Part shown: positions 11,363-44,196 of the stretch, piece by piece
How positions within the stretch are numbered: the first letter of the stretch is position 1
Layout of the letters: every line of letters begins with the position of its first letter
Origin: Capsaspora owczarzaki ATCC 30864
Taxonomy: Eukaryota > Opisthokonta > Filasterea
Assembly (NCBI RefSeq): GCF_000151315.2
Contig: NW_011887293.1
Span: 1,403,585-1,467,584, forward strand
Direction: 5' to 3'
DNA: 64,000 nucleotides
Made by a program: the position numbers and the translations under genes
Notes under the pieces: model-generated
Seen by the model: the letters and a program-made list of their open reading frames with translations, nothing else
What the model was told of the DNA's origin: nothing
Databases searched by the model: none

Positions 11363-11649
11363 GCTGGTTGATGAAATGCAATGGAATGATCAGAGATCGT
11401 TCCACGAAGAGACTACAGTACAGTTGATGATAGGACTAATAGTGGGGAAGCAAGATACTTCACTTATACAAAGCAACGAGTGAACACTCTCCAAATACAG
11501 ATACTTCTAAAATCAGTCCTTCAATAGAAACTTGTTGTTTAAACTATCAGGTTTTTTTTTTTTTTTTTTTTTTCTTTCTTCTCGTTCACTCTCCTCATCT
11601 CCTTCTCCTCCTCCTCCTCCTCCTTCTCTCTCTCTCTCACTCACTCACA

Positions 11650-11652
<3 letters not shown>

Positions 11653-11735
<83 letters not shown>

Positions 11736-11745
11736 CTCTCTCTCT
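11653..11745 (+). repeat. (TC)n microsatellite just upstream of a start codon
   Basis: Almost pure TC dinucleotides for about 90 bp with one TCGC interruption near 11732. The tract ends 16 nt before the ATG of the ART-like gene, so it lies in that gene's 5' UTR or core promoter. Length variation could affect expression; this is inference. Confidence 0.95.
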
Positions 11746-11761
11746 GTCTTCATTGCTCGGC

Positions 11762-14700
11762 ATGTCAAAAGACCCGATCTCGCTCATTCGCGACGCTCTG
11801 CCACCACGCCTTGTCCCTAGCGTGAAGTCGGCGCCTGAGTTCATCAAGACTCTATCCAACCGCATTCAAACTGCACGAGTCGCCGATCCCGACTTCTGCT
11901 GGAATGCCTCCGCATTCAACACTCTTCTCACCGACGACTACGCAATCGTTTCGCAAGTGGTGCAGCTTGCCCCGTTACTCCCTGTGCTTCTCGACCGCTG
12001 CCGGCCGGCCGTCGTTCGAGATTCGGAATGGGCTTTTGCGCTCATCGTCACCCTTACCCGGTGGCTTCCGTCACAACAAACAGCGACCGTGGTCAACAAG
12101 GCGGCCGTCTGGTGGGCGACTGCTGCCCGTGACCCTACTGCCTCTGCGGAAGTCCTTGTGATCTCGCTCCAAGCTGCCAGAGAGCTGCTGGCTATGAACC
12201 GCTCGCTGCACGCTCACCTACTACACGAACTGCCGACACTGCTCAAGTTGGCCCAAAAGCCGTTCGTCCAAGCAACCGCGCTCGAGCTGCTTGCCGACCT
12301 GTGCTATGACTCCCGAGAGGCGCAATTACTCGTCGAATCGCATCAGCACCAACTTCTTCAACCGCTGCAGAACCCAGCCAAGCGTGCTACTGGTGCTCGA
12401 TACCGTGCGCCTCCGAATGAGCAACAACCCGAAATGTCAACCAAGCCAATGCCAAGATCTCCGCTTCGAAAGAACTATGTCACCGAAAGCGACAAGTCCA
12501 AGCTAGACAGCCTCAACTTGACAGCTTCTCTTAGACTGCTTCAGCGACTGGCGTACATCGTTCCGCCCGAAGCTCGCGAGGGCTCAGCCTACGTCTCGGA
12601 GCCGGCGGACGAGCTGTATATCGCTGCTCGTAGTTGGGACGGCCGCAGTTCGTTTGCGACCGCAGTGGAACATGTGTCCAGCTTGTATATGCACAAGCGT
12701 TCGACGACATACGACGAGGCGACGACAAGCACGCTTGCTGCCCTTGATGAGGCAATCAAGCCCTTGACCCCATCTTCCGTGTCCTCGACCTCGAAGATAC
12801 AACCGGCCAGTCAAAGCTCGGTCAATTCGTTCGTCGTACAGTCTGCGTTGCGAGCGCTGGCGAACACCTTGTTCGCAAACCCTCCCGCGCAAAAACTGGT
12901 GTATGAGCGCAAAGGCCTGGGCGTTGTGCAACAAGTACTCGACTACATTTCTTCGAATGAGCGACTTTTATCGTCCCAGGCGTTGCGCATGCTCGTCGCC
13001 TGCGCCGACGTGGTTGGCAATCTGCTGTTCGGTGACCCAACCATGCAGGATTCGACCGCAGCTGCGAAAGCGGTGGCATCGCTTCTGCGGCTGCTTCCAT
13101 CCCTTCCTTTGAGCGAAGGAGCAGCCGTTATCAAGAACGTGAGCATCGGCACTTACCTAAGCTTCAAAACTCGCGCTTTGACTCTTGGCGGATCTGTGCT
13201 TTCCACCATTCGAGACTGGCTGCAGAGCAACACAAAGAAGAAGCCAAGCGCGTCGACCTCGATCGCAAATCCGACAAGTACAACAGCGGCGACTGCCATT
13301 GATGCGGCATCAGCTTTTTCGCTGGTACTTATCTCGACCCTGAGCAATGCTATCAAAAGTGACCAAGTGGCAGAATGGGTGGAGGCTGCGTTCGCGTCGC
13401 TCGACGTCTTTGCCGATGCTCGGCCTTTGCATGAGCCAGCGCTGGCAGTATCATCCGCTCTGTGCTTGGGCTGCCAAGAGCAGCTCAATCAGACACAACG
13501 CCAGCCACTTGAGCCCAAGATCGCGCTGTTGATTCCAGATCGTCCAGGCAGTGCTGCCGACGCGATTCGCTCAGGCACAGCTGCATGTCCGCCGTCTGGT
13601 GGTTCAACTTTGGCACCAACCTCTGCATTGTCGTTATCGTCCTCTATCGGCATCGATGTGGCACAAGTTTCCCCACCAAGCTTGGCTCTCTCTGCTACGT
13701 CATCGGACCCTTCGTCCTCGTATGCTGCTCTGCCACTCGACCATCGCGAATCCGTAATTCGCCATCTCGTACTCGTTGGGGTACACGAGACGGCGGCACG
13801 CGGCTTTGTGTCGCGTCTGCGGAGCACAGTCGAGCGCGAGCCAGTGCAGTACTGGTGCGACCGATTTTTCGAAAAGCGCGAGAGTGCGCTGGCCGAGACA
13901 TGGTACTACCAACTCCAAAATTTCTCAGCCAACCTTCAAGACATCGACAGCCGCGCTTCGTTTGTGAAGGCCGTCAGCATTGCCTTCGACATTGAGGAAA
14001 CGTTCGCTCAGCGGCTTCTACCGTTCGTTGAACGAGTGTTTTTCTGGCGTCTCGGTCTGGCGCATTGGCTCAAACTTCTTGCAGCAGCACGCCTTCCAGA
14101 ACACGCCCGAATGGCCCGTGCTCCGTCACCCTTTCGCCAAACAGCACTCTCTGAGCAGACTAATGAACACGGCTGCAGGTTGATCGACCCTCATACGGTC
14201 GGTCCGCTTGGTCAATCAGAAAAAGTACCTGCAGGTCTCTGGGACTATGTGGACGAGGCTGACCTGGAACAATTCGCAAGCGAGCGTCAAGCCCAACTGG
14301 CGCCTGCTGAAGGCTCCCGGCTTTGGTTTCACGGCTGCAGTCAACGCTCGTCTTATAGTATCAACACCGTGGGTATCCAGCCCCAATCCTATGGAGCCCA
14401 CGATTTTGGTCTCGCGCCTGCGTTTTACGTGGGGTCCCGACTCGATCTTGCCATCGAATGGGCTTATAACAGGAGCGACTCCCGTGATGACTATGTCGCT
14501 GTCTATGTGTTCACACTACCGCAAGTGCCGTCTGTGGATCTGGAAAGGCACGTCTTTGAGACGCCTGACCAACAATGGGGAGATTTCGTTCTTGCCTCAC
14601 GCAGTTTGACCGACGCGGAGCTGACCGCACGCTTTGCCAGCCCAGCTGCACAAGAGGAGCTCGCCGGTCAGCACGACGAGATGGATTTTATTCAGGGCCC

Positions 14701-14821
14701 GGTATGGCGCTCTCAGCGCACGGCAATCGAAAAATTTGAGCAGCTCGCTTGCAAGTCTCGCGGCATGTGCCAACATGTTTCTGGCTGCTTGAGTTTTGTG
14801 ATGTACTTGAAGGCTAACTGA
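11762..14821 (+). CDS. Large helical-repeat protein with C-terminal ADP-ribosyltransferase-like (DUF3990-type) domain
   Basis: Single-exon CDS of 1019 residues; the start is the first ATG after the (TC)n tract. Residues about 1-560 are rich in Leu/Ala helices and look like an ARM/HEAT-type solenoid (for example VQATALELLADLCYD, SSQALRMLVACADVVGNLLF). A Ser/Pro-rich linker follows, then a second helical block near 650-780. Near 850-955 the pattern LWFHGCSQ ... HDFGLAPAFYVGSRLDLAIEWA ... VAVYVFTL ... WGDFVLASRS resembles the H-G / DFGxGFY / AxxWA / WxxF pattern of DUF3990, an ADP-ribosyltransferase-fold family. That assignment rests on motif pattern only. No signal peptide or membrane segment is seen. 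It could ADP-ribosylate a target recruited by the solenoid, or be an inactive fold. The C-terminal tip SFVMYLKAN is duplicated 4 kb upstream. Confidence 0.7.
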   Translation: MSKDPISLIRDALPPRLVPSVKSAPEFIKTLSNRIQTARVADPDFCWNASAFNTLLTDDYAIVSQVVQLAPLLPVLLDRCRPAVVRDSEWAFALIVTLTRWLPSQQTATVVNKAAVWWATAARDPTASAEVLVISLQAARELLAMNRSLHAHLLHELPTLLKLAQKPFVQATALELLADLCYDSREAQLLVESHQHQLLQPLQNPAKRATGARYRAPPNEQQPEMSTKPMPRSPLRKNYVTESDKSKLDSLNLTASLRLLQRLAYIVPPEAREGSAYVSEPADELYIAARSWDGRSSFATAVEHVSSLYMHKRSTTYDEATTSTLAALDEAIKPLTPSSVSSTSKIQPASQSSVNSFVVQSALRALANTLFANPPAQKLVYERKGLGVVQQVLDYISSNERLLSSQALRMLVACADVVGNLLFGDPTMQDSTAAAKAVASLLRLLPSLPLSEGAAVIKNVSIGTYLSFKTRALTLGGSVLSTIRDWLQSNTKKKPSASTSIANPTSTTAATAIDAASAFSLVLISTLSNAIKSDQVAEWVEAAFASLDVFADARPLHEPALAVSSALCLGCQEQLNQTQRQPLEPKIALLIPDRPGSAADAIRSGTAACPPSGGSTLAPTSALSLSSSIGIDVAQVSPPSLALSATSSDPSSSYAALPLDHRESVIRHLVLVGVHETAARGFVSRLRSTVEREPVQYWCDRFFEKRESALAETWYYQLQNFSANLQDIDSRASFVKAVSIAFDIEETFAQRLLPFVERVFFWRLGLAHWLKLLAAARLPEHARMARAPSPFRQTALSEQTNEHGCRLIDPHTVGPLGQSEKVPAGLWDYVDEADLEQFASERQAQLAPAEGSRLWFHGCSQRSSYSINTVGIQPQSYGAHDFGLAPAFYVGSRLDLAIEWAYNRSDSRDDYVAVYVFTLPQVPSVDLERHVFETPDQQWGDFVLASRSLTDAELTARFASPAAQEELAGQHDEMDFIQGPVWRSQRTAIEKFEQLACKSRGMCQHVSGCLSFVMYLKAN

Positions 14822-19024: not shown

Positions 19025-22000
19025 ATGACGATGACGACGTGCAACAACAGGCCTGGTCGCCTACCGATCATCCGAATGCGTCAGTTCCTACCGCTCTTAC
19101 CATGCATTGTAGCCACCACTCTCCTGGCCATCTCGACGATGCCCGCAGTCTGCGACGCCGCTTGCACGGGCACTACATCGGCTGATTTTTCACACCTGAA
19201 CACTGCTCTTGTCAGCGGAATCCCCTCCATTTGCATCGATGATACCATCACCTGGTCGGCCAACACGCCGCTGCAAATCCAGTTCTCGACCTCATTCGGG
19301 TGCAACGCCGATCAGCGATGCACGTTCGATGCCAATCACCACACTTCGTGGTTTTCATTCCCGGATAACCAAGGAAACACGCCCTTGACGGTGACCTTTG
19401 ACAGCTTTGCCTTCATCAACCTCGCGTACGCCGCAAACTCGGATGGTGGCATTGTTGTCGATCCCGACACCGCGCCGGCCATCACCCTCATCTTTAGGAA
19501 TTGCTCCTTTACATCCAACGCGAACACTGCGGTGAGGCTTTCTCGCGCGACGGACACTGTCCAGCTGATTTCCACGTCCATCACGGGCAATCTGTACACC
19601 CACAACACTCCAAGCATTTCCGTTGCCAGAGCATCTGTTGTCATGACGGACATGACTTGCGCAGGTACGCCAGCCGCTCGGGCTGTATTGCATGCCGCCC
19701 TGTTGATGCTAGGATTGATTTTCTCTCACATTGTGTGTGTGTGTGTCGTTCGTTGCAGACAACTATGCTCCGACGACGATTGGTGTCTGCTTTAGCTCGG
19801 ACTACTGTGACAATTGCAACAACGCCTTGACTATCACTGGTTCCACTTTTCGGAACAATACCGGGAAGCAGGGTGGCGCCATTGCCAGCGCAGGAACAGG
19901 AACTGTGTCCATCTCGCAGTCCACCTTCCTTGCCAACCACGCCACAGACTACGGCGGTGCCATTCAAGCGCAGCTGTGCAACTCCTTTACCCTATCCTAC
20001 AGCAATTTCACAAGCAACATTGGTGTTACAGGAGCCGGTGCGATCGCCTTGAGCAATCCGGGTCCCGCGGCCTTGGACCATGTGTCGTTTGTTGCAAACA
20101 TGTGTCTCCGTGCTGGGTGTACAGGCGGCGCTGCCAACCTGGGAACGAACGCTGGCGCTGTTGCGATGATTACGAACTCGTACTTTGAAGCGAATTTAGC
20201 ATCTGTAAGAAGACTCAGTGTCCACGGCCATTTGCATTCATTGCTATGCACAAAGGGTGTATTGAGTTCCGATCTAACCCTGCTCATTGTGTCAGGGCTA
20301 TGGCGGTGCGCTTTCTGGTGCAAGCAAAGTGCTGACGATTGCCAACACGCAATTCATCAACAATGGCTACGGAGTCACAAACAATTCCTACACACGAGGG
20401 GGCATCATGGATTTCGGCGACTGCTTGAGCATTCGAGTCAAGTAAGGTCGATACGTTTTGTCGCTGCTGCATTTGCCATGCACCGCCTTTCAAGCGAAAA
20501 AAACAAAACCAAAACAACAGTTGCTCAATCTCACAATCTTACTGACCTCTATGAAACGCCTGCATTGGTCTAGCAACTCTGTCTTCTCGGGATTTGCACA
20601 AGGTGACGGCGGATCCAACGCAATAACACTTTTCACAGCCGAGGGCGCGAACGGCGACGTGGCAGTGACCAATTGCTTGTTCGAACACATGTACTCGGGC
20701 CAAAACGGACCGATTTTGGAACTCGCGGGAACGACTGGATCACTGTCCAACACTGTCTTCCAAAACATGGTCGCGCCCGTTGCAGACTATGGCCCGGTCA
20801 CCATCTTTCCTGCCGACTCTGCACCCCCGTTTCACGCGTTCGTTGTGCGAAACTGCACTTTTGTCGACATGGTGGGGTCTCAGGGTGGGGCGCTGTTTTC
20901 TGCGCAGTCGCTCTCGGTTTCCAGCTCGACTTTTCGCAACTGCTCTGCCGTCGAGCACAATCCTGTAGGTGGGGCGATTCGAGTCAGCTTTGAAAACATT
21001 GCGAGCCCAACGAAGACAGTCAGCATCAGCTCATGCACGTTCGTCGACTGTGCTTCAACGGGCATTGACGGGAGCGGATACCAGGGAGGCGGTGCCGTTT
21101 CGATCGGGAATGCCAAGAGCGTGTCGGTGTCGCAGTCTAGCTTTGTGCGCTGTCTGTCGCTCCGACAACCAGGCGGCGCCATTGCCACCCTGGTCGACCC
21201 CGATGTCCGCGCTGTTGCTCAGCTGACAATTTCCAACTCCAACTTTACAGGCTGCATCGGCAGATACGACGGAGGCGCGATTGCGGTCGACACGCAGTAC
21301 CAAACAACAATTTCTCAGTGTCAGTTTGCCGGCAATCGCGCAATCTCTTCGAGTAACCAGCACGGAGGCGGTGCTATCTTGGTGGCTTTGAATAGCACTC
21401 TGGCGGTTGCAAACTCTGTATTCTCGAACAACTCTTCCCCGGATGGCTATGGCGGAGCCATCTACCAAGGCGCCAATACTCACTACGACGGTGCCACGAT
21501 CACGTTGACGTGTAAGCCGGAAAAAAGAAATGTCGGACTGGTGTTGTTGCGCGAATTCTCGTCGGCTTGCTTGGATCATCCATGTTCATTTTTTCCCTCT
21601 GTCGTTGTTATTGTTGCTGCTGCTGCTTGCTTGCTTGCTTTGATCTTTGTGCGTCTGAACAGCCAACCAGTTCCTGCAAAACACTGCAGCGACGGGCGGT
21701 GCCGTCGCGGTCGGCTCTCGGGGACCCGCTCAGCTTGCGCTCTTCAAAAACAATGCGTTCACCTCAAACGCTGCGCCAGCGGGTCGAGGCTCGGCAATCT
21801 ACTTTCTCGAAGATAACGATGGCGAAATGTTCAACATTTTCGTCAACTGCTCCTTTGTCAATCACACTCTAAGCCTCCCTGCGTCGACCGTGGTGCAATT
21901 CGAGAATCAGCCCCGATCAGCCTTTGTTGGCTGCACCTTTTCCAACAACACTTCCGCACAGAGTCAGTCGGACATTGGAGTCGAGTCGGACTTGACTTCC

Positions 22001-23713
22001 AACCGATACTTTATCGGATTGGACAATCAATACTCGTCGGGACTGGGCAGTCTCCGTCAGACCGTGTTCAGCAATCTCGAATCGTCCAGCCAGAACACCA
22101 TCGTGTATGCGAGCAACACGAGTGATTATTGTGAGCTTTGCCGAACACACCAAGTCCTGTGCCAAGCGGTGAATTGTAACAAGTCCAATCCCCCACCCGG
22201 TGACTCGGGCAGCAGCGCTCCGTTTGCAGCCATTGGAGGTGCTATTGGTGGATTGGTTGCCCTCCTTCTCATCCTGTTTGTCGTCCGGCGGTATCGCAAA
22301 AAGCGTGCCTCGAAGCCGGAATTCCATTCTGCAACCTCGTCTCGAGCAACACTGGCTCGTCCTGAGAACAACACTGTCATTGCAATGGAGCCCGTTGTGA
22401 TCAACGGCGACAACAGTTTTGGTGTGACAAGCAGCCTCAAGGACTCGCCTCCCGCTGCTCCAACGCAACAGTACGAAATGATGGGGCCAACGCCTGCCAA
22501 TGGTGGAACAGACGGCGGCTACGTTGCGCTTCAGCCAACCCCTGATAACGACTACGAAGTGATGGCCTCAGACGCGACGTCCGGCGACTATCTCGAGATG
22601 GTGGCGGCGAAGGCGCAGAAGGACAACATGTACGAGTTGCCGGCTCAAATGCTGCGCGAAAATCTCGTCATGCTCGTCCCACGCTCCATCAATCGCGCGA
22701 GCGTCGAGTTCAAGCAGGAGATTGGTCGCGGCGCCTTTGGTCAGGTGTTCAAGGCCAGCATTCCGACAATCTTCCACGACCAGCCCAGGCCGGGCGTGCC
22801 CACGTCCTTGACGGTTGCCATCAAGACATTGCAGGAAGGCGCAGATGAGCGATCGCGCGAGGACTTTGCTTCCGAGTCGCAGACGCTCCTCCAGTTCCAG
22901 CACACCAATATTGTCACCGTGCTGTCCGTCATGACGGAAGCCGAGCCCCACTTGCTCATTCTCGAGTACTTGCCGTTTGGCGATCTGCGCGGCGTGATTG
23001 AAAAGGGCGCCAATATGAATCCGTGCTTGCACCTCACGTTGGCAGAAAAGGTCCACGTTCTCGGCCAAATCTCGTCGGGCATGACCTATCTTGCGTCCAT
23101 TCGCTTTGTCCACCGCGATCTGGCCGCTCGCAACTGCTTGGTCGGTCCGATGCTGACTGTGAAGATTGCCGACTTTGGCCTGTCGCGTGCCCTGTCGGTT
23201 GAGCGCGACTACTATCGAGTCGAGACCAAGGGCAAGCTCCCCGTCAAGTGGATGGCGCCCGAGTCGCTCGAATACCGCACATTCAGCACGGCGTCCGATG
23301 TGTGGTCCTTTGGTTGTGTCATGTATGAGGTGTTTTCGAACGCGGGCAAGCTGTACGAGGGCATGACTGTGGATGCCATCATTGACTATCTGCGGTCTGG
23401 CAAGCGCATGATGCAGCCAGCTGACTGTCCTGATCACTTGTAAACGAAGCCACCCTGTTCTTGGACGTGCTTGCTTTTGACGTGTTTTTTGATTGTGGAG
23501 AGGCAACCGACGCTGATCTGTTTTATTTGTGTTTTGTGATGTGTTGTTGTTTGGTTGTTGCTTTTGTACTGCAGGTTTACGCTTGTCACTCGATGCTGGG
23601 AGCAAGATGCCAACGCGCGGCCCTCTTTCCCCGAGATTTCCGGTTTCTTTGCGATTGCGCGGAACAAGAAGGATCAGATTCGTGATGTTGGTTTGATTGT
23701 TTCAGACGCTTAG
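19025..23713 (+). CDS. Receptor tyrosine kinase with parallel beta-helix-like ectodomain
   Basis: Six exons (19025-19664, 19759-20204, 20296-20441, 20574-21511, 21663-23439, 23575-23713) give 1361 residues. Order: signal sequence near 18-45, then about 850 ectodomain residues of repeated short strands (xGGAI, FxNNxA, ISxSxF), the pattern of right-handed beta-helix (pectin-lyase-like) repeats. A membrane helix lies near 908-930 (GGAIGGLVALLLILFVV) with basic stop-transfer RRYRKKR. A juxtamembrane segment carries five tyrosine motifs (YEMM, YVAL, YEVM, YLEM, YELP; about 990-1055). The kinase domain is about 1076-1345: GRGAFG, VAIK, HRDLAARN, DFG, VKWMAPE and CWEQDANARPSF. All catalytic residues are present and HRDLAARN marks a tyrosine kinase. 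The last intron splits the kinase C-lobe; the stop apparent at 23441 is intronic. The YxxM cluster predicts PI3K SH2 docking. Confidence 0.92.
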
Positions 23714-33138: not shown

Positions 33139-36100
33139 TTAGTCGACGCTGTAGAGGGCATGTGTTGAAGTCTTGCGTGCGTCTTCAACCGACTGAGCAT
33201 TCAATGCCGCCACCTTGGGATGCGGCGGTGGTGCAGAAGTGGTCGAGGCGGGAGCCAACCCGAGCTTTTCGAGCTTCTCGGCAAGCTTCTGCTCGGGCGT
33301 AACGGCCTCAGCAGGCTGCGACGACAGGGTTGCCTCCGACGCGTCCATCAATTTGTTGACGAGCTTCTCCAGACCGGTGGGCGGCACGGCTCCCGGAGAG
33401 ACTTGTTCCTTCGCCTGGTTGAACGGAGATGCAGCGCCAGAACCAGCATTGGTTGGCGACAAAGGGCGCTCGGGCGACAAGGGCTCCATTTCGCCAGTGC
33501 TGGCCGACGCCATCTTCTTCTTGCCAGCAAACTTGCGGGTGAGTTCCCAGAAGTTGGTGCCGTCCACGAACGCCTCCTTGAGCGTAAACTTGGACAACTC
33601 CTTGGGTTCCTTCTCTTTCTTGGGATCGTCCTTGTCCTTCTTGAGCTCGTCCTTGTCCTGGGAGCCATGGCTGCTGCGGGTGAAGCGGTGGTGCGAGTGT
33701 TTGTTGCGCTTGCCATGCGGCTGCTGCTCAACGGGGTAAGGAGCATCCTTCTCGAGAAGGACATAGTCATCATCGTTGTTCATGCTGGTTCGCTCGACAG
33801 GAGTGGCGGATGCAGCGTGGACAGCCGCAATTGTCGGTGCTGATGCGCCAGCAGCTGATGCGCCAGTAGACGACAACAACGACGAAGAAGCGCCCAAAGG
33901 TGCTGGCGAGCGCGACGCCTTCTTGCCGGCGTAAAAGTCAGCCAAAGATACGGCGCCAGGGGAAGCTGACGTGAGCGCAGCAGCCGTCGAATGCAATTCC
34001 GCGTGCGTTGGCATACGCAGTGTCGGACGTCCACGCATGTCGGCATACTTGAGCTCGCCGCGCAAGACCGCCACAAGAGCACGGAGCTGGTCGCGGGACA
34101 GGCCAGACCCCTCGGAAGTCAAGACGTCGAGTGGTGTTTGAGAAACCGCATTCAGGGACAGCGTGGCGCCGGCCTCGACGAGGAGAGCGGCGATGCCAAT
34201 ATGGCCCTGGCGAGCAGCCAGGTGCAAGGGAGTGTTCTTGCCAAAGTCGCGCGCATTGCCTGAAGCTCCCAGGTTGATCAGCAAGCGCACGGCCTGCTCG
34301 TTGTTGGCCAAAACGCACGAGTGCAACAAGGAGTGTCCCGACGACTTTTCGGCGACCATTGACAAGAGCGAGCCGGCAGCCTTCGGAATCGGGGCGCTAG
34401 CAGCAAGCTTGGCGCAAGCTTCAAACACATGCCAGTGTCCGCCGCGGATGGCAAGGTGCGCAGGAGTTGCGCCAGTCTCGAGCTCGCAAGCCAGAAGGGC
34501 TTTGATGGCTTGAGCTTGGATGCGTGCCAAAAGACGCAGATCGGCAGGTTTGGGCTTTGTCTCACCAGCTGGCGCCTGTGCAGGGGTGTTGGTATTGGCG
34601 GGTGGTGCCTGGGCGGAGCCGAAAACGCCAAACACTGCCATCGCAGTTGCACGATCGCCGTGTCGGGCAAGATAGTGCAGACTGTTACGGTTGAAGTTGC
34701 GCGCATTGCTCTGGCCCAGGTCTGCGCCTGCAACGAGCAAGAGCCGTGCGATGGCAGCTCGCTTTTCAATGACAGCAGAATGCAGGACCGTCTCGCCCAT
34801 GTCGTTGACACTCTGCAAATCCTCGGCTGCCAGGAGCGGCAGCAGGGCCATTGTCGAACGCAAGTTGCCCTGGGCGACTGCGGTGTGCAAGGGTGAGTCG
34901 CCATTCTCGTTTGGTGCGGCGAGCAATTGGCGATGCAGAGCAAGCAAATAACGTGCGTCCCCAGACGCTGCAAAGCCTTGAACGGCACGAACAGTCGACA
35001 GAGCAAGCTGATGCAACTTGTGCTGGTGCATCGGGATGAGGCTGTTGAAATTGAAGGGCTCGTCGCCGCCCTTGCTGCTGCTGCTGCCGCCGCCGCCGCC
35101 GCGACCGTTGTTGTTGGCATCGCTGCCATCATGTCCACCGTTATTGCCTCGGCCGCTGCCACTGCCATTGCCACCGTCAGAACCGTCAAAGCGGTCCATA
35201 AAGTCGCGCATGCTGTCATCACGGCGACGCTTGCGCGCAGCCAGCTCGGCGTTGCGGACGGCAGCCTCTGCGGGCAGATACGTGTACTCGACGTACTGCG
35301 ATTCTGTCTCGTCGTCCGTGTCCAAAATCGAAATGCGCACCGTCACTGGCGCAGTGATGGTTTGCGTGTGGTACGGGGGCAGGGTCAGCACGACCGCATA
35401 CTGGTGGTGGAAGAACAAGTTGGCGCCAGGTACATTGCAGTCCGCCTTGAGTGTTTGCGGATTGAGCTCCCAGGCGGAACCGGATGGGGCTTGCACAGAC
35501 CACTGCGTCGGGTCGGTCATGCGCACGCCCGTCACTCCCTTGCGGATTTTCGAGCAGAGCATAATGACTTCGTTGCCGCCAGTCACCGGTCCAGAAGAGT
35601 GTGAAATTTTCGTGATGGCCAGTTTCGCTGTGTGCGCAAAAGGGGGAAAACAAAAAGAGGGTTGAACAAGAGTGAGACCAAAACAAACACACACACACAC
35701 AAAAAAAAAAACCACAAACAGAAGTTGCAAAAATGCACAAACGAATGGAACAAACAGCCATTGCAACCTACCATTGTAAATGGGCTGAGAGATTGCTCGG
35801 CCGTAAAACTGAGTGTTGCCAGAAACGAAAACGAGCTCAAACATGATGCGAACGCAGCGCTGGTCGTCCTTGCTTCGAACGGGCGCCTTGGACTTGTCCT
35901 TGTCCTTGTTGTTTGCCTTGTCCATGATGACGGCAATGTTGTCAAAGCGCGCAATGCGCTGTGGGCCCTCCAGTGGAGCTGCGGGAATGCCGCCGAGGTG
36001 GTGCCAGTGTTTTTGTTGGCGACCCGTGTGCGGATCGGGCATCTTGGTCACCAGAACAGCAGTGACGAGAGCCATTTCAGGGACGACACGTGCATACTTG

Positions 36101-36954
36101 GGATTGACCATGAGGGTGGGGAATGAGTTCTCGCCGGCGAGAGAGCGCTCGCGCTGCTCGCTCATGTAACGGAAGCGAGCAAACTGGGCTGGCTCCTCGG
36201 TCACCATCAGAAGGTCTTCCACAAGAGTTGCGGCGCCCTCTGCGGCCGCTTCGGCGGCACTCAAGAGCCGATTGATGCGGTCGGGCGTCAGCGCGGCGAG
36301 CGCTGCGGATGTCCCACCGACGGTGACGGGACCGCTGCTGGTTGATACCGACGGCGAAGCGATTGGGCTGGCCGCGGGGAACGCCGTGGCGCTTGCTGAA
36401 GAGTCGGCAGTTGCCGGACTGGTGGCAGTGATGGTCAAATCCATACCAGTGGTGGGCGAGAAGCCGAGGTCATCGGGCAGCCCGACCATACTCGTGTTGG
36501 CAGAAACGGAACGGACGGGGTGGCCGAGAATATTGGCCAACAAGATGTCGTCCGCCTCCGAGGTGGATGCCAGCCTGGAGTTGCCCGTGAGGCCCACAAG
36601 CCCCAATTCGGGAGATTGCAGGGACATGTCCTGCGACGCGGGTGAGGGTGAGAACAGGACCGACCCAGGCGATGGGGTCGAGTGTGAGTCCGACGAGCTG
36701 CTTTGGTTGTGGCCTCGTCGTGGGGGTGCCTGGGCCAACTGCGGCTGCTGTGGCGGCGGAGGAAACTTGGGAATGCCGGAAATGTCCAGCGACGTCGAGA
36801 CCGAGTTATACAAGCCCATGTCGCGGAACAGGGACAGTCCGTCGCTGTGCAAAATCATGGCGGCCATGGTCGAGTCGTCCATCGCGAGCAGGTTGGCCGT
36901 GTGCTCCTGCAGCGAGAGGTTTGGGTCCCATCCAGACAATTCGGAGAGGTCCAT
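33139..36954 (-). CDS. NFKB: NF-kappaB family transcription factor (Rel homology domain plus ankyrin repeats)
   Basis: Two exons (36954-35772, 35627-33139) give 1223 residues. The frame is open through the intron, but GT-AG borders and the restored motif PIYNAKLAITKI show that it is removed. Order: acidic Ser/Pro-rich N-terminus of about 250 residues; Rel homology domain from about 257 with recognition loop RFRYMSEQRERSLAGENS; the IPT/dimerisation half from about 395 (GPVTGGNEVIMLCSKIRKG); a nuclear localisation signal ARKRRRDD near 525; a Gly/Asn-rich stretch; then six or more ankyrin repeats, about 625-900 (NENGDSPLHTAVAQGN, LLINLGASGNARDFGKNTPL); and a Ser/Lys-rich tail. This is the p100/p105 layout: ankyrins would hold the RHD in the cytoplasm until the C-terminus is removed. 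The Gly-rich segment may act as in p105 processing. No death domain was recognised. The redox Cys of the animal loop (RFRYxCEG) is Ser here. Confidence 0.93.
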   Translation of the reverse strand: MDLSELSGWDPNLSLQEHTANLLAMDDSTMAAMILHSDGLSLFRDMGLYNSVSTSLDISGIPKFPPPPQQPQLAQAPPRRGHNQSSSSDSHSTPSPGSVLFSPSPASQDMSLQSPELGLVGLTGNSRLASTSEADDILLANILGHPVRSVSANTSMVGLPDDLGFSPTTGMDLTITATSPATADSSASATAFPAASPIASPSVSTSSGPVTVGGTSAALAALTPDRINRLLSAAEAAAEGAATLVEDLLMVTEEPAQFARFRYMSEQRERSLAGENSFPTLMVNPKYARVVPEMALVTAVLVTKMPDPHTGRQQKHWHHLGGIPAAPLEGPQRIARFDNIAVIMDKANNKDKDKSKAPVRSKDDQRCVRIMFELVFVSGNTQFYGRAISQPIYNGRLQWLFVPFVCAFLQLLFVVFFFVCVCVCFGLTLVQPSFCFPPFAHTAKLAITKISHSSGPVTGGNEVIMLCSKIRKGVTGVRMTDPTQWSVQAPSGSAWELNPQTLKADCNVPGANLFFHHQYAVVLTLPPYHTQTITAPVTVRISILDTDDETESQYVEYTYLPAEAAVRNAELAARKRRRDDSMRDFMDRFDGSDGGNGSGSGRGNNGGHDGSDANNNGRGGGGGSSSSKGGDEPFNFNSLIPMHQHKLHQLALSTVRAVQGFAASGDARYLLALHRQLLAAPNENGDSPLHTAVAQGNLRSTMALLPLLAAEDLQSVNDMGETVLHSAVIEKRAAIARLLLVAGADLGQSNARNFNRNSLHYLARHGDRATAMAVFGVFGSAQAPPANTNTPAQAPAGETKPKPADLRLLARIQAQAIKALLACELETGATPAHLAIRGGHWHVFEACAKLAASAPIPKAAGSLLSMVAEKSSGHSLLHSCVLANNEQAVRLLINLGASGNARDFGKNTPLHLAARQGHIGIAALLVEAGATLSLNAVSQTPLDVLTSEGSGLSRDQLRALVAVLRGELKYADMRGRPTLRMPTHAELHSTAAALTSASPGAVSLADFYAGKKASRSPAPLGASSSLLSSTGASAAGASAPTIAAVHAASATPVERTSMNNDDDYVLLEKDAPYPVEQQPHGKRNKHSHHRFTRSSHGSQDKDELKKDKDDPKKEKEPKELSKFTLKEAFVDGTNFWELTRKFAGKKKMASASTGEMEPLSPERPLSPTNAGSGAASPFNQAKEQVSPGAVPPTGLEKLVNKLMDASEATLSSQPAEAVTPEQKLAEKLEKLGLAPASTTSAPPPHPKVAALNAQSVEDARKTSTHALYSVD

Positions 36955-37481
36955 GGTGATGGTGTTGGTTCTTGAGTTTCCCCAAAGAAAAAAAAATTGC
37001 AGGATGTCTTGTTTCGTGAGAGGCGAGCTTGTGACTTCTTGAGGTTGTTGAGCACCACCACCGTCAACCAGTCAGGGTTGATTCACAAAAACGCTGAACT
37101 TGCGCTTGAGCTTGGATGAGATGGGATGGCGTTTCGAACGGCACGGCTGACTTTGCCTTCCTCCTGAGAATGCAACAAATGAACAAGCACCAAAGTATAA
37201 ACCTAAAATGAAGCAAACCACAATCACAAGACCAGCAGCGCAGAGGGTGAGCAAAACGATAGTATCCAATGCAATGCAAACAGCCAGTCAATCTGTGCCT
37301 TTTTTTTTTTTTTTTTAATCTTGTTCCAATCAAACAAAAGTTCGAACTCTTCATTGTGCGGTTTTTTTTCCCCAATGTTTGCTGCTTGCTTTGATGATGG
37401 TTGGTTTTCTGTTGTGTTTGTTTTGGCTGTCGTTTGCATTGCACAAAGAATCGAAGAAGAACGTTTTTGGGGAAATTCCCC

Positions 37482-38507: not shown

Positions 38508-39627
38508 TTACACCTCGTCCGCTTCGGCTTCAGCACGCTTGGACGCCGAGGTAGGGGTCTGGCTGTACGCGGGCGGAGCCGCAGATGCGTGCTGCTCCAT
38601 TGCGCGCATGCGCTGCTCGAGTTCGCGCAACTTGGCATCTTTGGCTGCAAGCTCGGCACGCAGCTTGGCAATGTCTGTTTCTTGCAATTCTCGCTCCACT
38701 TGAGCGACATGCAGACACGCGTCCTTGTGCGCGACGGTGCGTTCATGCTGACCCTGGACAAACTTGAACGCAGACTGCTCTTGCACAAGCTGCTGCTCAA
38801 GTGCAACAATCCGCTTCTGAAGGCCATCCTCGGTAGAGCTGGGTTTAGCCACGGCAGAGGTATGACTCGCCAGAGGATTGGAGGCGGTTGAAGCCGTGGG
38901 GTGCACAGAACCCGTCTGAAACTCGAACGGCTCGCTGGACAAGAGCAAGCTGCTGCGAGGGCTGCCAACAATGTTGTTCAGCACGCTGCTGCGCGGATCC
39001 GAGCCCGAGGGTGTCCGAGAACGAACGTTGCTCACGTCCGAGAAGCTGCTGCTCACAAAGCTGGCACGTTCGTAATCCTCGCTGCCGATTGAAATATTGT
39101 CGTGGTCACCGTGATGATACTTGTACACGCGGCGAGTCGGGAGCTGGATGCTATCACTGGCAGTGTCTTCTTTACGGCGGCTTTTGCGTCGCTCGAGCTG
39201 GCGGCCTCGGTGGCGTCCGGCGAGCACGGCAAACAGGACAACGAACAAAAAGAACACTCCGGTGACGGTAAACCCAACCAAAGGCACGATGGATGAGCTC
39301 GACTCTGAGGCGCCGATAGGCCACGACTGTCTGGTTTGCGACGAGGTGAGCGGGTTGACGAACGTCGTCTGGACAGAGGATGTAACGGGTTTCGGATTGA
39401 AAAATGTAGCTGATAAATCGATCGTGCCCGATTCGGAGGGAGCAGGTGTCGCACCGTACGACTGCAACTCGGTCGTCGACAGTGGCAAGGTGCCGTCGGT
39501 TGTCGCATCCGGTGAATCATCTATGACCAGTGAAGGTGACGCCGAGGGTGTCGGCTCTGAGCCAGGTCCAGCGGTCGACGGCTGCGGTTCGTAGGGGGTT
39601 GTTGGTGAAGGTGAGACATTTGCATGG

Positions 39628-39659
<32 letters not shown>

Positions 39660-40091
39660 CGTCGTGTTTGTGCTTGTTGCCAACGGCGCCGATGGAGAGG
39701 CTTGGGACAACGGCTCAGACGAACCCACCTCGGCAGAACCAGCAGACAACGAGGACGACGTTTGAGGCAGAGGAGCGGCGGTGGTGGTGGGCAGTGAGAC
39801 GCTGGTCGGTTGGAAGGTGGCAGGACTCGAGTTGCTGGGGCCATGGGAATTATTATTCGCAGCGGACACGGATGACGCAGAGGCCCGCGAAGCACTCGAC
39901 GTATTGGACGCATCCAGCAGTCGCGATGCATCAGACGCTTTCGAGGCAAACGAGGCATTCGACGCACGGGTGGCCTGCGAAGCGGCGCTGGCTTTGGATG
40001 CGGCCGATGCAGAGGAGGCGGTAACTTGGCTCGCGGTGGCGAGACTCGCAGAACTCGCCGCCGCAGCATCGCCGCCCAGGATGTTGCCCAT
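38508..40091 (-). CDS. Single-pass, mucin-like Ser/Ala/Thr-stalk membrane protein with coiled-coil tail
   Basis: Single-exon CDS of 527 residues; family not recognised. Residues 1-75 are an irregular SAS/AS repeat (ASKASAASQATRASNASFAS). Then comes a Thr/Ser/Pro-rich region with a T12 run, a likely O-glycosylated stalk. A membrane helix lies near 272-295 (IVPLVGFTVTGVFFLFVVLFAVLA) with basic RHRGRQLERRKSRRK. The cytoplasmic part ends in a coiled coil of about 70 residues (LQKRIVALEQQLVQEQ ... LRAELAAKDAKLRELEQRM) and a PPAY motif, a possible WW-domain ligand. No signal peptide is encoded at this ATG. An in-frame stop lies about 45 nt upstream, so either a missing upstream exon supplies a signal or the helix acts as the anchor. 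The SAS stalk resembles that of the next gene (40877-44196). Confidence 0.65.
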
Positions 40092-40876
40092 TGTTGCAAA
40101 GAAGAAAAGCAGAAGTACGGTGCAGTGTATATGTCAAGTGCAGTGGTGGATTCCGCAAAATGCGCAGCGTGTTGCTTGGAAAAGCGATGAAATCAAAAAA
40201 AGCAAAATGCAAATAAAAAGTGTGAACTTTGCTAAAATGAGGAAAATCGTTACCTTAAAAAACACACAAAAAAATCAAAGGAAAACAACAAACTCAAAAG
40301 TATGCAATGCGAATGAAATGAGTCATCGGGGTGTATGGTGGCATATGGACTGGAAATTCAGCCCATAAGACCAAGTAGAATGAGGGCAACAGAGGGCTAG
40401 CTGGGCGGGTGCACCGTCTGTGTGCTGTATGAGACGGGGGAGCGGGTGGTTGTCAAGCAATGCGAACCGAACGACGCTCCAGAGAAAAGCGCGTTTGTCG
40501 TGAAGCGAACCCGACACGCGCACAAAGTTGGCATAGCCTGTTCATGCAACGTCAATGGTCCAGTGAGCAGCAACACTTATCGCTGCCAGCTCATCTTCAC
40601 TAAGCATGTAACTTGCTCGAGAACCGAGTGTAGAACGCCATGCCCATCGTTCAGCTCGGCATTCATCGCTTCAGTCGCTCAAGCCTCAACCACATAAAGA
40701 TCCTTCCTCAATTGAGCGTTGTCTTCACATCTATGCTAGACCTGCTCTAAAGAAGAAAAACAGAAACAACTGCATTGATGTCACAAGAACAGAAAATCGC
40801 ACGACACACTGCGCAAGGACACGTCACATGCAGCGAGAACAAAGGAAGCATGCACATTGTTGTGTTTGTTGTTTGT
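40092..40876. other. Intergenic between two stalked membrane-protein genes
   Basis: Separates the start of the A/S-stalk gene from the stop of the amidase-like receptor; both are on the minus strand. No coding exon, RNA gene or repeat was recognised. If the A/S-stalk gene has a missing 5' signal-peptide exon it should lie here or further right. Confidence 0.4.
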
Positions 40877-43800
40877 TTACTGACTCGCCTGGTTGTGAAC
40901 CACGAGCGTGTACTGTACAGCATCCGATCTTGGAGCCTGAAGTTCGTCGTAGTTGCTCTGGGCGTTGGTGGTGTTGGCATACTCGTTGGTTGAAGGCTCG
41001 ACCTGGCCAGCCGCATGCACCGAGTCGTACAAACTCGAGTCGACTTGGGCAGTCGGGCGCACCGAGTCGTACATACCAGAGTCGGCTGCCTCCATTTGTT
41101 TCGCGACAGCAGCACTTGGAGCGGAGAGTGAGTCGTACAAGGCCTCCGTTGCATGATCATGCGCAAAAAGAGGGTTGGCAAACTCGTTCGGGGCACCATC
41201 AGCCGTGGGATTGAAACTCATGCGCAGCTCAGCGTCGCGAATTGATGCGACGTTGTTCGTCTTTGCCTGACGGCGGCGGCGGCGAGTCACCAACACGACA
41301 AGCAAGAGAATCAGCAATAACGCGGCCACGCAGCCAACAACACCTCCAATGATGGCAGCCACATTGACGGCAGAGTCTGACGCGCGAGCAGCGGCAGACG
41401 CTTGAGAGGCGGCCGAGGCGACTGACGCGACTGACGTCTCATGTGCGGACGATGACGATGCCGCAGCTTGTTGACTCGCTTCTGACGCGCTAGCAGCAGA
41501 CAACAAAGTTGCAGAGGTGGCAGCAGCGTCAGACGCTTCAGAGGCAGCAGATGCGTCGGACGCTTGAGAGGCAGCAGACGCGACCGATGTCTCATAGGCT
41601 GACGAAGATGCCGCAGCTTGTTGGCTTGCTTCTGTAGCAAGGGTTGCAAGTGTAGCAAGGGTAGCGAGGGATGCCGAAGCGCTCGCGGCACTAGCCGAGG
41701 TCGCCAGACTTGCCATTGACGTTGCAATCGCCGAAGCGGACGCCCGGCTCAGCGACGACGCGAGAGGCGCGGGAGTAAACACCAGCTGGCTCAAAAGCGC
41801 TTCCATCAGGTTGTCACGCTCTGTCTTGGAAACAATTGTCTCGAACGGGAAGCCCAGCAGGCATGATGCGATAGAGACATCGCGGAAAAGCACGCCCGCA
41901 ATCAAGCTGCCGCTGGTTGCACCGTAGTTCAAGATAGGCGCGCTACCACCAGTCGTGGACAGGGCGTCGGGGCTCGGGACGCCATAAGGCTTGCCCATGC
42001 CAATTCCACTCGGGCTGTTGAAAGTGACCGTACTGGAGGCCACGGAAAACGACGAAGCGGGGCGGACCACGTAAATTCCGCTGTTGGTGTTGCTCAGTCC
42101 GGCTTTCAGCGTACCAGAAAGGAAGCTTGGCGATGCTGTCGCCAGACTGGAGGCCACCTCAGAGCCGCTCACCAGCAACGAGCGCAGCTGAATTCCTCCG
42201 CTATTCATCCAAGTCGTAATAGTGGTCTGCTGGGCCGACGAAATGGCCCCAGCCACGCCCGAGACCTGCGAGTCTGTGCCAGCAAGCCAAATCACAGTGT
42301 TGTAGCCGTTGAGGTTGGTTGCCCAGCTCGCATCCGAAAAGATTTCGTTGGCCGCCCCGTCGAACGCGTAACCTGCTGCCGCTGCTGCCACCGACAGCGC
42401 GTGCTGGATGATATAGTCGCGTGTGTACCGACCCTCGACGTTCGTGGACGTGAACGTAAAATCGCCTCGGACGCCATCGACAAGGACCATGGTTGCACGC
42501 GTTCCAAAAGCAATTCGGCGGACTGCCGTCGTGAGCTTGCTCATCGCTTCGCCACCGGCATTGACACCAGCCACCTTGAAAAAGGCAAGTTGCCATGGCG
42601 CAAGACTCGTGTGCATGTAGCAATACGTGGAACCAGTCAGGGCCGCAGAAACAATCACACCGTCATCCCAGCCACGACCATCGCTTGACGTGTAGAGTTT
42701 CCAAGCTGTCGGAACAGCAGTAGACTCTAGCGAGTCGGTGGGCTGGCGCCAGCAAATGTTGACGCTGGTTTGGGTGTTGATGGTGTGCAAGTGCGTGACA
42801 GGAAGCGGAAAGGCGACTGCAGAAGTCGAGAGAAAGCTTCGCAGCAGCGCCTTGTAGAACGTGCGACCAAGCTGATATTCCAATGCCAAAAAGAATAAGT
42901 GAATAAGGTGGACATCAACGTGGTTGCAAAACGACAATTTTGTTTTTTTAGTTTCCTGCTCACAGATTCGCGAAAGTAGTCACTTGCAAACTTGGCCACG
43001 TCTGCTGGGACGTCCATGAACATCGGCAGGGTGGAGAACGATGGCACGAGGGTGTTCAACTGAAGTTCCGCGTAGTTGTGCGTGCCAGTGACATACACGG
43101 GCTGGCCAGAAGTTCGACTCATCTCAGCTTGAAACTTGTCGCGCAGCAAGTCACCGCGATTTTGCACATTCGTGGACAGGGTCACAGATGTCGCTCCTCC
43201 GTAGGTGGCTGATCTTCCATTCGAGTAGCTCACAGAGGTAGTACCTCCCACACCAGGTGTGCCGCAGCAGTTTGTCTTCATCTGGATGTGCGCCCAAGAG
43301 GCAAACGAATTGGACGGCGACACGACTGTTTCCTCATTGTAAAGTAGCGACGAGTAGGCCGCGTGTCCCGTCTCTTGATCAGTTGATCCGAGTGAGTAGT
43401 TCAAGTATGTCAAGAAATTCGTTCCAGTGAAATGCCATCTTGGATGGGACGTGGCAGAGCCACAACCGACGCGAATTCCATCAGCAACAATGTAGCCCGT
43501 GTCTCCTGGAGCAGCTTCGGCGGCCGTGACTTGATTTGAGATTTCCACGCGGAAATTGGTGGTGGTAAAGTAGAATCGCCCAACGTATTGCCAAATGTCA
43601 CCGCGCGTTTGCTGGCGCAGGAAAACGGTCGAGGTGCCGCCAGAATGAAAAATTCGCACCAGTGTCTTTGAGGCTCGATTGGCATGCTCTGTGTATCGCA
43701 TGTATACGGGGTAGTACCCATCCGCAGCGAGGGTGGTCGTGTACGCAGCATAGGAGGTTTCCGTGGAAGTGCCCTTGATGTAGCGAACACCTCCAAGGTA

Positions 43801-44196
43801 TCCGCCGCCGTAAGGCAGCCAGTCTGGGGCCGAAAAGCCTGGCAGAGAGTCGTCGAGGAACTTTTCATCTGGAGTGTCAAACCACCGCTCGCGAGTCATG
43901 TAGACGTTCAAGCCGGCGTTGGCCAGATTGTCTTGCACATACTGAATGAGAATTTCTTGCATGAATGTGTCCTCCAAAATGGAATACGAGCCGCCAGCAG
44001 TCCAGCTTGAGCCAGTCCAGCCGTACATTGGCGACAGCACCACATTGTAGCCGTAAAGGTTGGGGCGGGTCGTGTTTGCGGCATCCACATACTGTGTGGG
44101 CACATTGTGAATGTCTGCGCGCACAAAGGCGGCGGTCAACCAGCTCAGCGCGAAGGCGACCGTGACGAGCCGACTCGAACAGTGGCCGGGATGCAT
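40877..44196 (-). CDS. Single-pass receptor with bacterial amidase/golvesin/FN3/GATase-like ectodomain and tyrosine-motif tail
   Basis: Exons 44196-42964 and 42871-40877 give 1075 residues. Order: signal peptide (about 1-27); an amidase-like part with VVLSPMYGW, LEDTFMQEI and NAGLNVYMTRERW; a golvesin-type beta domain (about 150-235: YPVYMRYTEHA, HSGGTSTVFLRQQ, WQYVGRFYF); an amidase-like second part ending YFRES / LGRTFYKALLRSF; an FN3-like part (PLPV, DSLESTAVPTAWKLY, NAGGEAMSKL); a GATase-like domain (MVLVDGV, YNTVIWLAGTDSQ, LLVSGSEVASSLA); a Ser/Ala stalk; a membrane helix (GGVVGCVAALLLILLLVVLV); and a tail with YDSL, YDSV, YDSV, YANT, YDEL and YTLV. This ectodomain order is that of Bacteroidetes proteins annotated xanthan lyase or N-acetylmuramoyl-alanine amidase. 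The zinc His of S-H-G reads M-Y-G and the C-terminal catalytic Glu region is not conserved, so catalysis is doubtful. A ligand-binding receptor signalling through tyrosine phosphorylation is inferred. Confidence 0.85.

Follow-up and report, generated by a model that had tools for sequence, protein, structure and literature searches.

A candidate receptor of Capsaspora owczarzaki with a bacterial-type, apparently disarmed amidase/golvesin ectodomain and a six-tyrosine cytoplasmic tail

The receptor gene and its gene model

In a stretch of 64,000 nucleotides from the holozoan protist Capsaspora owczarzaki ATCC 30864 (assembly GCF_000151315.2, contig NW_011887293.1, positions 1,403,585 to 1,467,584 of the forward strand; hereafter the window), a two-exon gene on the minus strand (44196..40877) encodes a type I membrane protein of 1,075 residues. 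Its ectodomain resembles a family of bacterial secreted proteins along nearly its whole length, the presumed catalytic residues are largely replaced, and the cytoplasmic tail carries six tyrosines. A preliminary description made from the letters alone had proposed a receptor of this build, and leader, ectodomain, stalk, one membrane helix and tail do indeed lie in one gene model. That description had treated the gene as a single one; the gene is real, but it is one of nine paralogues, two of which are receptor tyrosine kinases. The features of the gene, in the direction of transcription, are as follows.

42964..44196, minus strand: exon 1, residues 1-411, with signal peptide, Amidase_3-like N-half, golvesin insert and Amidase_3-like C-half (from the gene model, Pfam and an alignment with 13 bacterial rows)
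44116..44196, minus strand: putative signal peptide, residues 1-27, read by eye; the paralogues share hydrophobic leaders ending before DIH
43468..43878, minus strand: golvesin/CBM6-CBM35-CBM36-like insert in the amidase-like domain, about residues 107-243 (Pfam match 138-243)
42872..42963, minus strand: intron of 92 bases, phase 0, GTGAGC...CAG
40877..42871, minus strand: exon 2, with the end of the amidase-like domain, FN3, GATase-like block, stalk, membrane helix, tail and stop
42518..42802, minus strand: FN3 domain, about residues 435-529; a profile built from the window protein together with 12 bacterial sequences retrieves FN3 structures
41777..42487, minus strand: Rossmann/GATase-like block (a fold name given as an impression) with LLVSGSE and a GFPFET end, about residues 540-776, aligned to 13 and to 12 bacterial rows
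41375..41776, minus strand: Ser/Ala/Thr-rich stalk, 75% S+A+T over residues 777-912, the presumed joint at which signalling ends are swapped
41285..41359, minus strand: single membrane helix, about residues 916-940 (hydropathy up to 3.24), then RRRRR
41165..41182, minus strand: FANPLF, an FxNPxF-like motif, residues 975-980
40877..41284, minus strand: cytoplasmic tail and stop, residues 941-1075 (135 residues), with six tyrosines

The reading frames of the bacterial homologues run uninterrupted across the position of the protist intron in the alignment, and exons 1 and 2 therefore belong together; the same break at the exon junction in the paralogues (L010 to L017) gives this junction a second support. 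The gene coordinates and the 42964/42871 junction given earlier thus hold. There is one alternative in-frame acceptor, 21 bases further on. Intron donor and acceptor were inspected in the window gene, L010, L011 and L012, and the other five copies were judged by translation alone; in L015 and L017 the reading frame stays open through the intron that precedes LGR. All of the previously named motifs that we checked are present in the translated gene (LEDTF, NAGLNVYMTRER, HSGGT, WQYVGRF, YKALLR, NAGGE and LLVSGSE), as are the Ser/Ala stalk, the single membrane helix and the six tail tyrosines. Contamination was considered and rejected because of the intron, the eight intron-bearing paralogues on five contigs and the eukaryotic neighbours, among them a Rel-homology/ankyrin gene and MutS_V.

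Bacterial relatives and the presumed active site

Residues ~45-776 match bacterial secreted proteins in an identical order of segments, with ~26-34% identity in the long matches, so that the bacterial homology previously suggested for the ectodomain extends from end to end (best E, or expectation value, 1e-53). In an alignment of the nine protist copies with 13 bacterial rows, of which three belong to a single contig, the order Amidase_3 N-half, golvesin, Amidase_3 C-half, FN3, Rossmann/GATase-like block and GFPFET is kept in protist and bacterial rows; with every module in order along a long alignment, the protein is a member of the bacterial amidase-golvesin-FN3-GATase-like family. The golvesin insert is recognized directly, as it exceeds the Golvesin_C (PF25275) cut-off (57.9 bits versus 31.6, E 1.5e-15) and by itself matches the C-terminal part of a xanthan lyase structure from Paenibacillus (PDB 6f2p, E 5.6e-10). 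The Amidase_3 C-half of the window protein does not reach the cut-off of the Pfam model (E 0.002, 18.6 bits versus 27), and its homology to Amidase_3 consequently rests on bacterial intermediates; 9/13 sequences of one alignment match that model at E 0.01. Of the 13 sequences in the FN3 profile set, 11 match Pfam fn3, and the window protein itself does not.

When GTDB genome contigs were scanned with the family alignment, 48 pattern matches led to one relative, a locus of 'bacterium UBP4_UBA6127' with two adjoining genes of the same build (E 4e-43 over residues 20-748 of the 749-residue ectodomain query). Ectodomain matches occur in 21/290 genomes around UBP4_UBA6127, and in the phylum of one of these 21, 28 of 40 genomes have them (best E 1.2e-53, 32% identity, residues 20-744). 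Two genomes of that phylum hold more than 20 ectodomain matches each, a large uncharacterised expansion. Plasmid records of Bacteroides finegoldii and Parabacteroides distasonis contain genes of the same build labelled 'xanthan lyase'.

Two unrooted trees were built, one of 22 rows and one of 31 (two of these partial). In both, all nine protist copies fall together in a single clade with 100/100 support, and one origin of the nine is therefore favoured. An origin from Bacteroidetes, as had been proposed, is not supported: the protist clade does not group with the two Bacteroidota rows, which are no nearer to it than others, and the best match scores for the ectodomain come from other genomes. 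We accordingly reject Bacteroidota as a demonstrated donor, with two Bacteroidota rows sampled. A phage origin is likewise without support, as PHROGs matched neither of the two ectodomain halves and a scan of viral contigs, with a bacterial homologue rather than the protist protein as query, gave no match.

Four columns of the amidase-like domain correspond to what we take to be the Amidase_3 metal His, metal Glu and metal His (zinc ligands) and the catalytic Glu.

44023..44025, minus strand: Tyr58 at the first metal His position; His in 22/22 bacterial rows and 0/9 protist copies
43972..43974, minus strand: Glu75, the sole kept position of the four; Gln or Pro in the eight paralogues
43276..43278, minus strand: Lys307 at the second metal His position; His in 22/22 bacterial rows and 0/9 protist copies
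43027..43029, minus strand: Leu390 at the catalytic Glu position; Glu in 22/22 bacterial rows and 0/9 protist copies

The presumed His-Glu-His-Glu set is thus complete in 22/22 bacterial rows, and the protist copies retain its members in 0/9, 1/9, 0/9 and 0/9 cases; the third column lies in a diverged region and is aligned with less certainty. Since neither His, nor the catalytic Glu, survives in any of the 9, the active site has been lost in every protist copy, and with Glu75 alone left in the window protein we reject an active amidase. The loss of the first metal His, which had been read as M-Y-G in place of H-G, is real, the catalytic Glu suspected to be missing is gone too, and the second metal His can be added to them. 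The ectodomain beyond the active site nevertheless appears to stay under constraint, to judge from the ratio of nonsynonymous to synonymous substitution rates (dN/dS) between close copies, which is 0.38-0.45 for three pairs in exon 1 and 0.05-0.26 for four pairs in the exon-2-type ectodomain. The weaker constraint in the golvesin-bearing exon 1 would fit a shifting ligand preference.

The nearest known proteins in build are the bacterial Amidase_3-golvesin-FN3 secreted proteins themselves (L018-L020, L051 and others; 'xanthan lyase' in Bacteroides), which share the whole ectodomain in the same order but keep His-Glu-His-Glu in all 22 rows and, in the parts read, have no stalk, membrane helix or tyrosine tail. 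The two L018 proteins also have a Germane match at the N terminus, over the cut-off in one of them and under it in the other. By description rather than by sequence, the Bacteroides lectins Cbeg4 and Cbeg5 share signal peptide, golvesin-class carbohydrate-binding module (CBM) and FN3 with the window receptor; according to the available text of PMC9166713 their CBMs bind Gal-beta1-3GlcNAc-beta1-2Man-alpha1-3Man, and that text describes no enzymatic domain in them. They differ from the receptor in being secreted bacterial effectors, with no membrane or signalling part reported in the same text. The two aligned Bacteroidota 'xanthan lyase' genes (L019 and L020) carry a full H-E-H-E set, whereas Cbeg4/5, of the same domain order, are described as non-enzymatic lectins.

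Nine paralogues and their signalling ends

Searching the genome (27.46 Mb, 29 contigs) yielded nine golvesin-bearing loci, and a query with the exon-2 ectodomain returned the same nine and one partial duplicate beside L013. All nine have the leader and the ectodomain blocks, and every copy read that far has the Ser/Ala stalk and the membrane helix; L015 and L017 have giant Ser/Ala repeat stalks, in open frames of 1,324 aa and at least 1,689 aa (L017 being clipped at the locus end). Beyond the helix the copies diverge. L011 and L012 continue into tyrosine kinases (PF07714, E 1.3e-47 and 2.8e-47), each containing HRDLAARN and DFGLSR, and WMAPE was also seen in L011; the two copies so share leader, ectodomain, membrane helix and tyrosine kinase with holozoan receptor tyrosine kinases. 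The window gene, L010, L014 and L016 have short tyrosine-bearing tails; the Pfam scan found no kinase domain in the window protein, which is not itself a receptor tyrosine kinase. Between stalk and helix, L014 carries a Furin-like Cys module of EGF-receptor type (E 1.1e-8, over the cut-off), and in L016 the same EGF-receptor-like module was recognized by sequence before the helix. PF07714 matches number at least 176 in the genome, from the 134 scored of 545 candidates and with Ser/Thr kinases included, and many of them share the exon break of L011 and L012.

On at least two occasions one recognition part has come to carry different signalling ends, the repetitive Ser/Ala stalk being the joint. 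L012, a kinase, and L016, a tailed copy, share 96.2% identity along 2,990 bp that begin upstream of the start codon and run through the stalk, at whose end the similarity stops; between the kinase L011 and the tailed L010 the likeness is 82.6%, as far as a position within the stalk. L014 and L016, by comparison, are alike (90%) on through their tails. The ectodomain tree places L011 and L012 apart, in two subclades and each beside kinase-less copies, which together with the abrupt end of identity at the stalk indicates two exchanges at the least. The window gene stands further off: its ectodomain shares no more than 40-48% identity with the three paralogues used for comparison.

The six tyrosines of the window tail lie in YDSL (Tyr990), YDSV (Tyr1012), YDSV (Tyr1026), YANT (Tyr1042), YDEL (Tyr1052) and YTLV (Tyr1065). 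Compared with 20,000 composition-preserving shuffles (the motifs were picked once the tail had been inspected, and p values are uncorrected for their number), the tail is enriched in YxxPhi (5 versus a mean of 1.0, p 3.5e-4), in YD (4 versus 0.45, p 2.5e-4) and in the pattern of the immunoreceptor tyrosine-based inhibitory motif (ITIM), [ILVS]xYxx[ILV] (3 versus 0.165 expected, p 3e-4), and it has one FxNPx[FYL] (p 1.2e-3); YxN, represented by YANT, is not above the shuffles (p 0.38). Among paralogue tails, YxxPhi takes in 4/4 tyrosines of L010 (p 4.5e-4), 3/4 of L014 (p 0.015) and 3/5 of L016 (p 0.027), and ITIM-pattern sites number 0 in L010, 1 in L014 (p 0.11) and 2 in L016 (p 0.004). The genome contains 34 SH2 segments, some of which are halves of one domain. 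Of what had been claimed for the tail, the six tyrosines and the three ITIM-pattern fits are accordingly sustained, the tail motifs, YxN apart, being above chance and SH2 domains, which the tail may recruit, being encoded in the genome. The claim of a YxxV-x10-YxxV pair stands as to spacing (Y1012 and Y1026) but does not extend to the consensus of the immunoreceptor tyrosine-based activation motif (ITAM), Val taking the place of Leu/Ile. As immune receptors of the ITIM/ITAM type are generally understood, the window protein resembles them in its short tail with several YxxPhi and three ITIM fits and differs in an ectodomain unrelated to Ig or C-type lectin domains and in the Val of the ITAM-like pair, a likeness that comes without evidence of common descent.

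A conserved motif that the preliminary description had not mentioned is FANPLF. Variants of it occur as FANPLF/FANPLL in L010, L013, L014 and L016 and as FDNPLF in L015, which with the window gene makes 6/7 kinase-less copies; FANPL[FL]/FDNPLF is absent from L017 and from both kinase copies, L011 and L012. FxNPxF/Y and YxxPhi are types of sorting signal.

Elsewhere in the window, the next open frame downstream of the receptor (38508-40133, minus strand) has, by eye, a stalk-like Ser/Ala stretch, a Thr/Pro-rich region, a hydrophobic helix and a coiled-coil-like tail, and gave no Pfam match. The gene at 33142-37071 (minus strand) is NF-kB-like, with a Rel homology dimerisation domain, ankyrin repeats, a basic and Gly-rich stretch between the two and a long C-terminal extension, a layout that fits Capsaspora NF-kB as far as the available text of PMC8677719 describes it. 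In the genome at large, the 20-base Capsaspora GAPDH forward primer of PMC9170242 has a single exact match, against 0 for controls; by eye the surrounding 251 bases resemble the end of a GAPDH exon, but the 22-residue piece hit 0 Pfam families and the reverse primer is absent from those bases. A 90-base stretch of coYki and a 20-base coYki primer gave no match. A further PK_Tyr_Ser-Thr kinase gene (21659-23440, plus strand, E 3.3e-73) lies ~17 kb from the receptor, and at 11543-14818 (plus strand) a frame of 1,092 aa has a DUF3990 match barely over the cut-off near its end. Rfam and tRNA scans of the 64,000-nt window gave 0 matches each.

What the receptor may bind and how it may signal

The reading that we hold to be probable, with real room for doubt, is that a dead bacterial amidase/lectin was acquired and rebuilt as a glycan or cell-wall receptor with tyrosine signalling ends. 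A gene for a bacterial secreted cell-wall amidase/lectin would have been acquired once in the ancestry of this holozoan, presumably passing from bacterium to protist. What the sequences themselves show is that the module order has been kept while a leader, introns, stalk, membrane helix and cytoplasmic end were added, that of the four presumed metal/catalytic residues three are missing from every one of the nine copies and the fourth from eight, and that signalling ends have been exchanged at the repetitive stalk; two copies end in tyrosine kinases, the window gene and three others in short tails with FANPL[FL] and YDxPhi. Because the golvesin insert matches a xanthan lyase and the CBMs of Cbeg4/5 bind glycans, the inactive ectodomain is predicted to work as a receptor that binds, in the manner of a lectin, glycan of the bacterial cell wall, bacterial polysaccharide or an N-glycan. 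On clustering, YDSL/YDSV/YDEL/YTLV could be phosphorylated by a co-clustered kinase member of the family or by a cytoplasmic tyrosine kinase, whereupon the kinase-less form would recruit SH2 proteins, and FANPLF would link it to PTB or endocytic adaptors. Ligand binding, phosphorylation and adaptor recruitment are all predictions of this kind.

Alternatively, one could envision a receptor for endocytic or phagocytic uptake, in which FANPLF and YxxPhi serve as sorting signals and bound bacteria or polysaccharide are carried in with little or no tyrosine-phosphate signalling. The presence of FANPL[FL]/FDNPLF in six of seven kinase-less copies, two of these without tyrosines, and the enrichment of YxxPhi in the tail would both be accounted for in this way. 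However, YD and ITIM-pattern contexts are enriched as well (p ~3e-4) and sister copies are kinases, which together indicate phosphotyrosine signalling, and we regard a pure uptake receptor as possible but unlikely.

Slightly less likely still is that the same receptor recognizes a eukaryotic N-glycan, on its own cells or on a snail host, and serves self-recognition, aggregation or host attachment. Cbeg4/5 are the closest characterised proteins by domain order, and it is an N-glycan motif that their CBMs bind in the account available from PMC9166713; furthermore, two receptor tyrosine kinases of Capsaspora rise in aggregates according to the available part of PMC3870316, and one of them, which has an extracellular FN3, could be L011 or L012. 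Set against this, a golvesin-type module is also found in a xanthan lyase, and the other parts of the ectodomain form an amidase scaffold, which ancestrally would presumably have acted on peptidoglycan.

We give about the same low weight to the idea that kinase-less forms are paired or decoy receptors, binding what the kinase forms bind and damping or modulating those forms. The 96% DNA identity of L012 and L016, whose ectodomains lead into different ends, and the three ITIM-pattern tyrosines of the window tail speak for such a pairing, but the window ectodomain itself has just 40-48% identity to three paralogues, both kinase copies are frame-broken in the assembly, and ITIM-pattern sites are not above chance in L010 and L014. 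That the gene is an ordinary member of a holozoan receptor tyrosine kinase radiation whose ectodomain went unannotated, being an ancient eukaryotic gene lost elsewhere or passed to bacteria rather than received from them, is improbable, since among the sequences searched the complete module order occurs only in bacteria and the Capsaspora genome and the intact active site is found in the bacterial forms, even though kinase segments are many in this genome and Dictyostelium golvesin shows the golvesin domain in other eukaryotes (PMC9166713, in the text available).

Several observations weigh against the view that a disarmed amidase/lectin was rebuilt as a family of signalling receptors. The ends of L013, L015 and L017 are broken or tyrosine-less, L011 and L012 have one ectodomain frame break each in the assembly, the first intron of L010 lacks a clear acceptor where the homologous one would lie, and L013 (minus strand) includes a partial tandem duplicate of the ectodomain exon with a second QLGRAIYKG copy; part of the family may consequently be decaying or mis-assembled, and the frame breaks and the missing acceptor may also stem from sequencing error or polymorphism. 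The tail, with a dN/dS of 0.56 in L014/L016, the sole pair measured, is less constrained than the ectodomain, and the paired YxxV motifs of the window tail depart from the ITAM consensus YxxL/I-x6-12-YxxL/I. Since the kinase copies lack FANPLF, the two types of tail need not act together, and a genome search for the PTB domain PF00640, run without a positive control, was empty. Finally, the eukaryotic sampling for the ectodomain consists of the Capsaspora genome alone.

A bolder version of the captured and disarmed amidase/lectin, which we put forward tentatively and think rather unlikely as a whole, would have it working in a paired system in which kinase and kinase-less ends (ITIM-like, FxNPxF) are swapped via the stalk, amounting to a phosphotyrosine-coupled sensor of bacterial glycans, akin to innate immunity, that existed before animals. 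We found no description of receptors with an amidase/golvesin ectodomain in the literature searched. Receptor kinases of unicellular holozoans with unusual ectodomains are a known kind, reportedly described by Suga et al. in 2012.

To our knowledge, the ligands and the ectodomain sources of premetazoan receptor tyrosine kinases are largely open. Regardless of what this receptor binds, the origin of its ectodomain can be read, as a whole multi-domain protein of bacterial type whose active site has been lost and which has been coupled to phosphotyrosine signalling, and the family provides an example of kinase and kinase-less receptors with a shared recognition part arising by exchange at a low-complexity stalk. 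It also offers a testable class of ligand, bacterial wall glycan or polysaccharide, in Capsaspora, a transfectable host.

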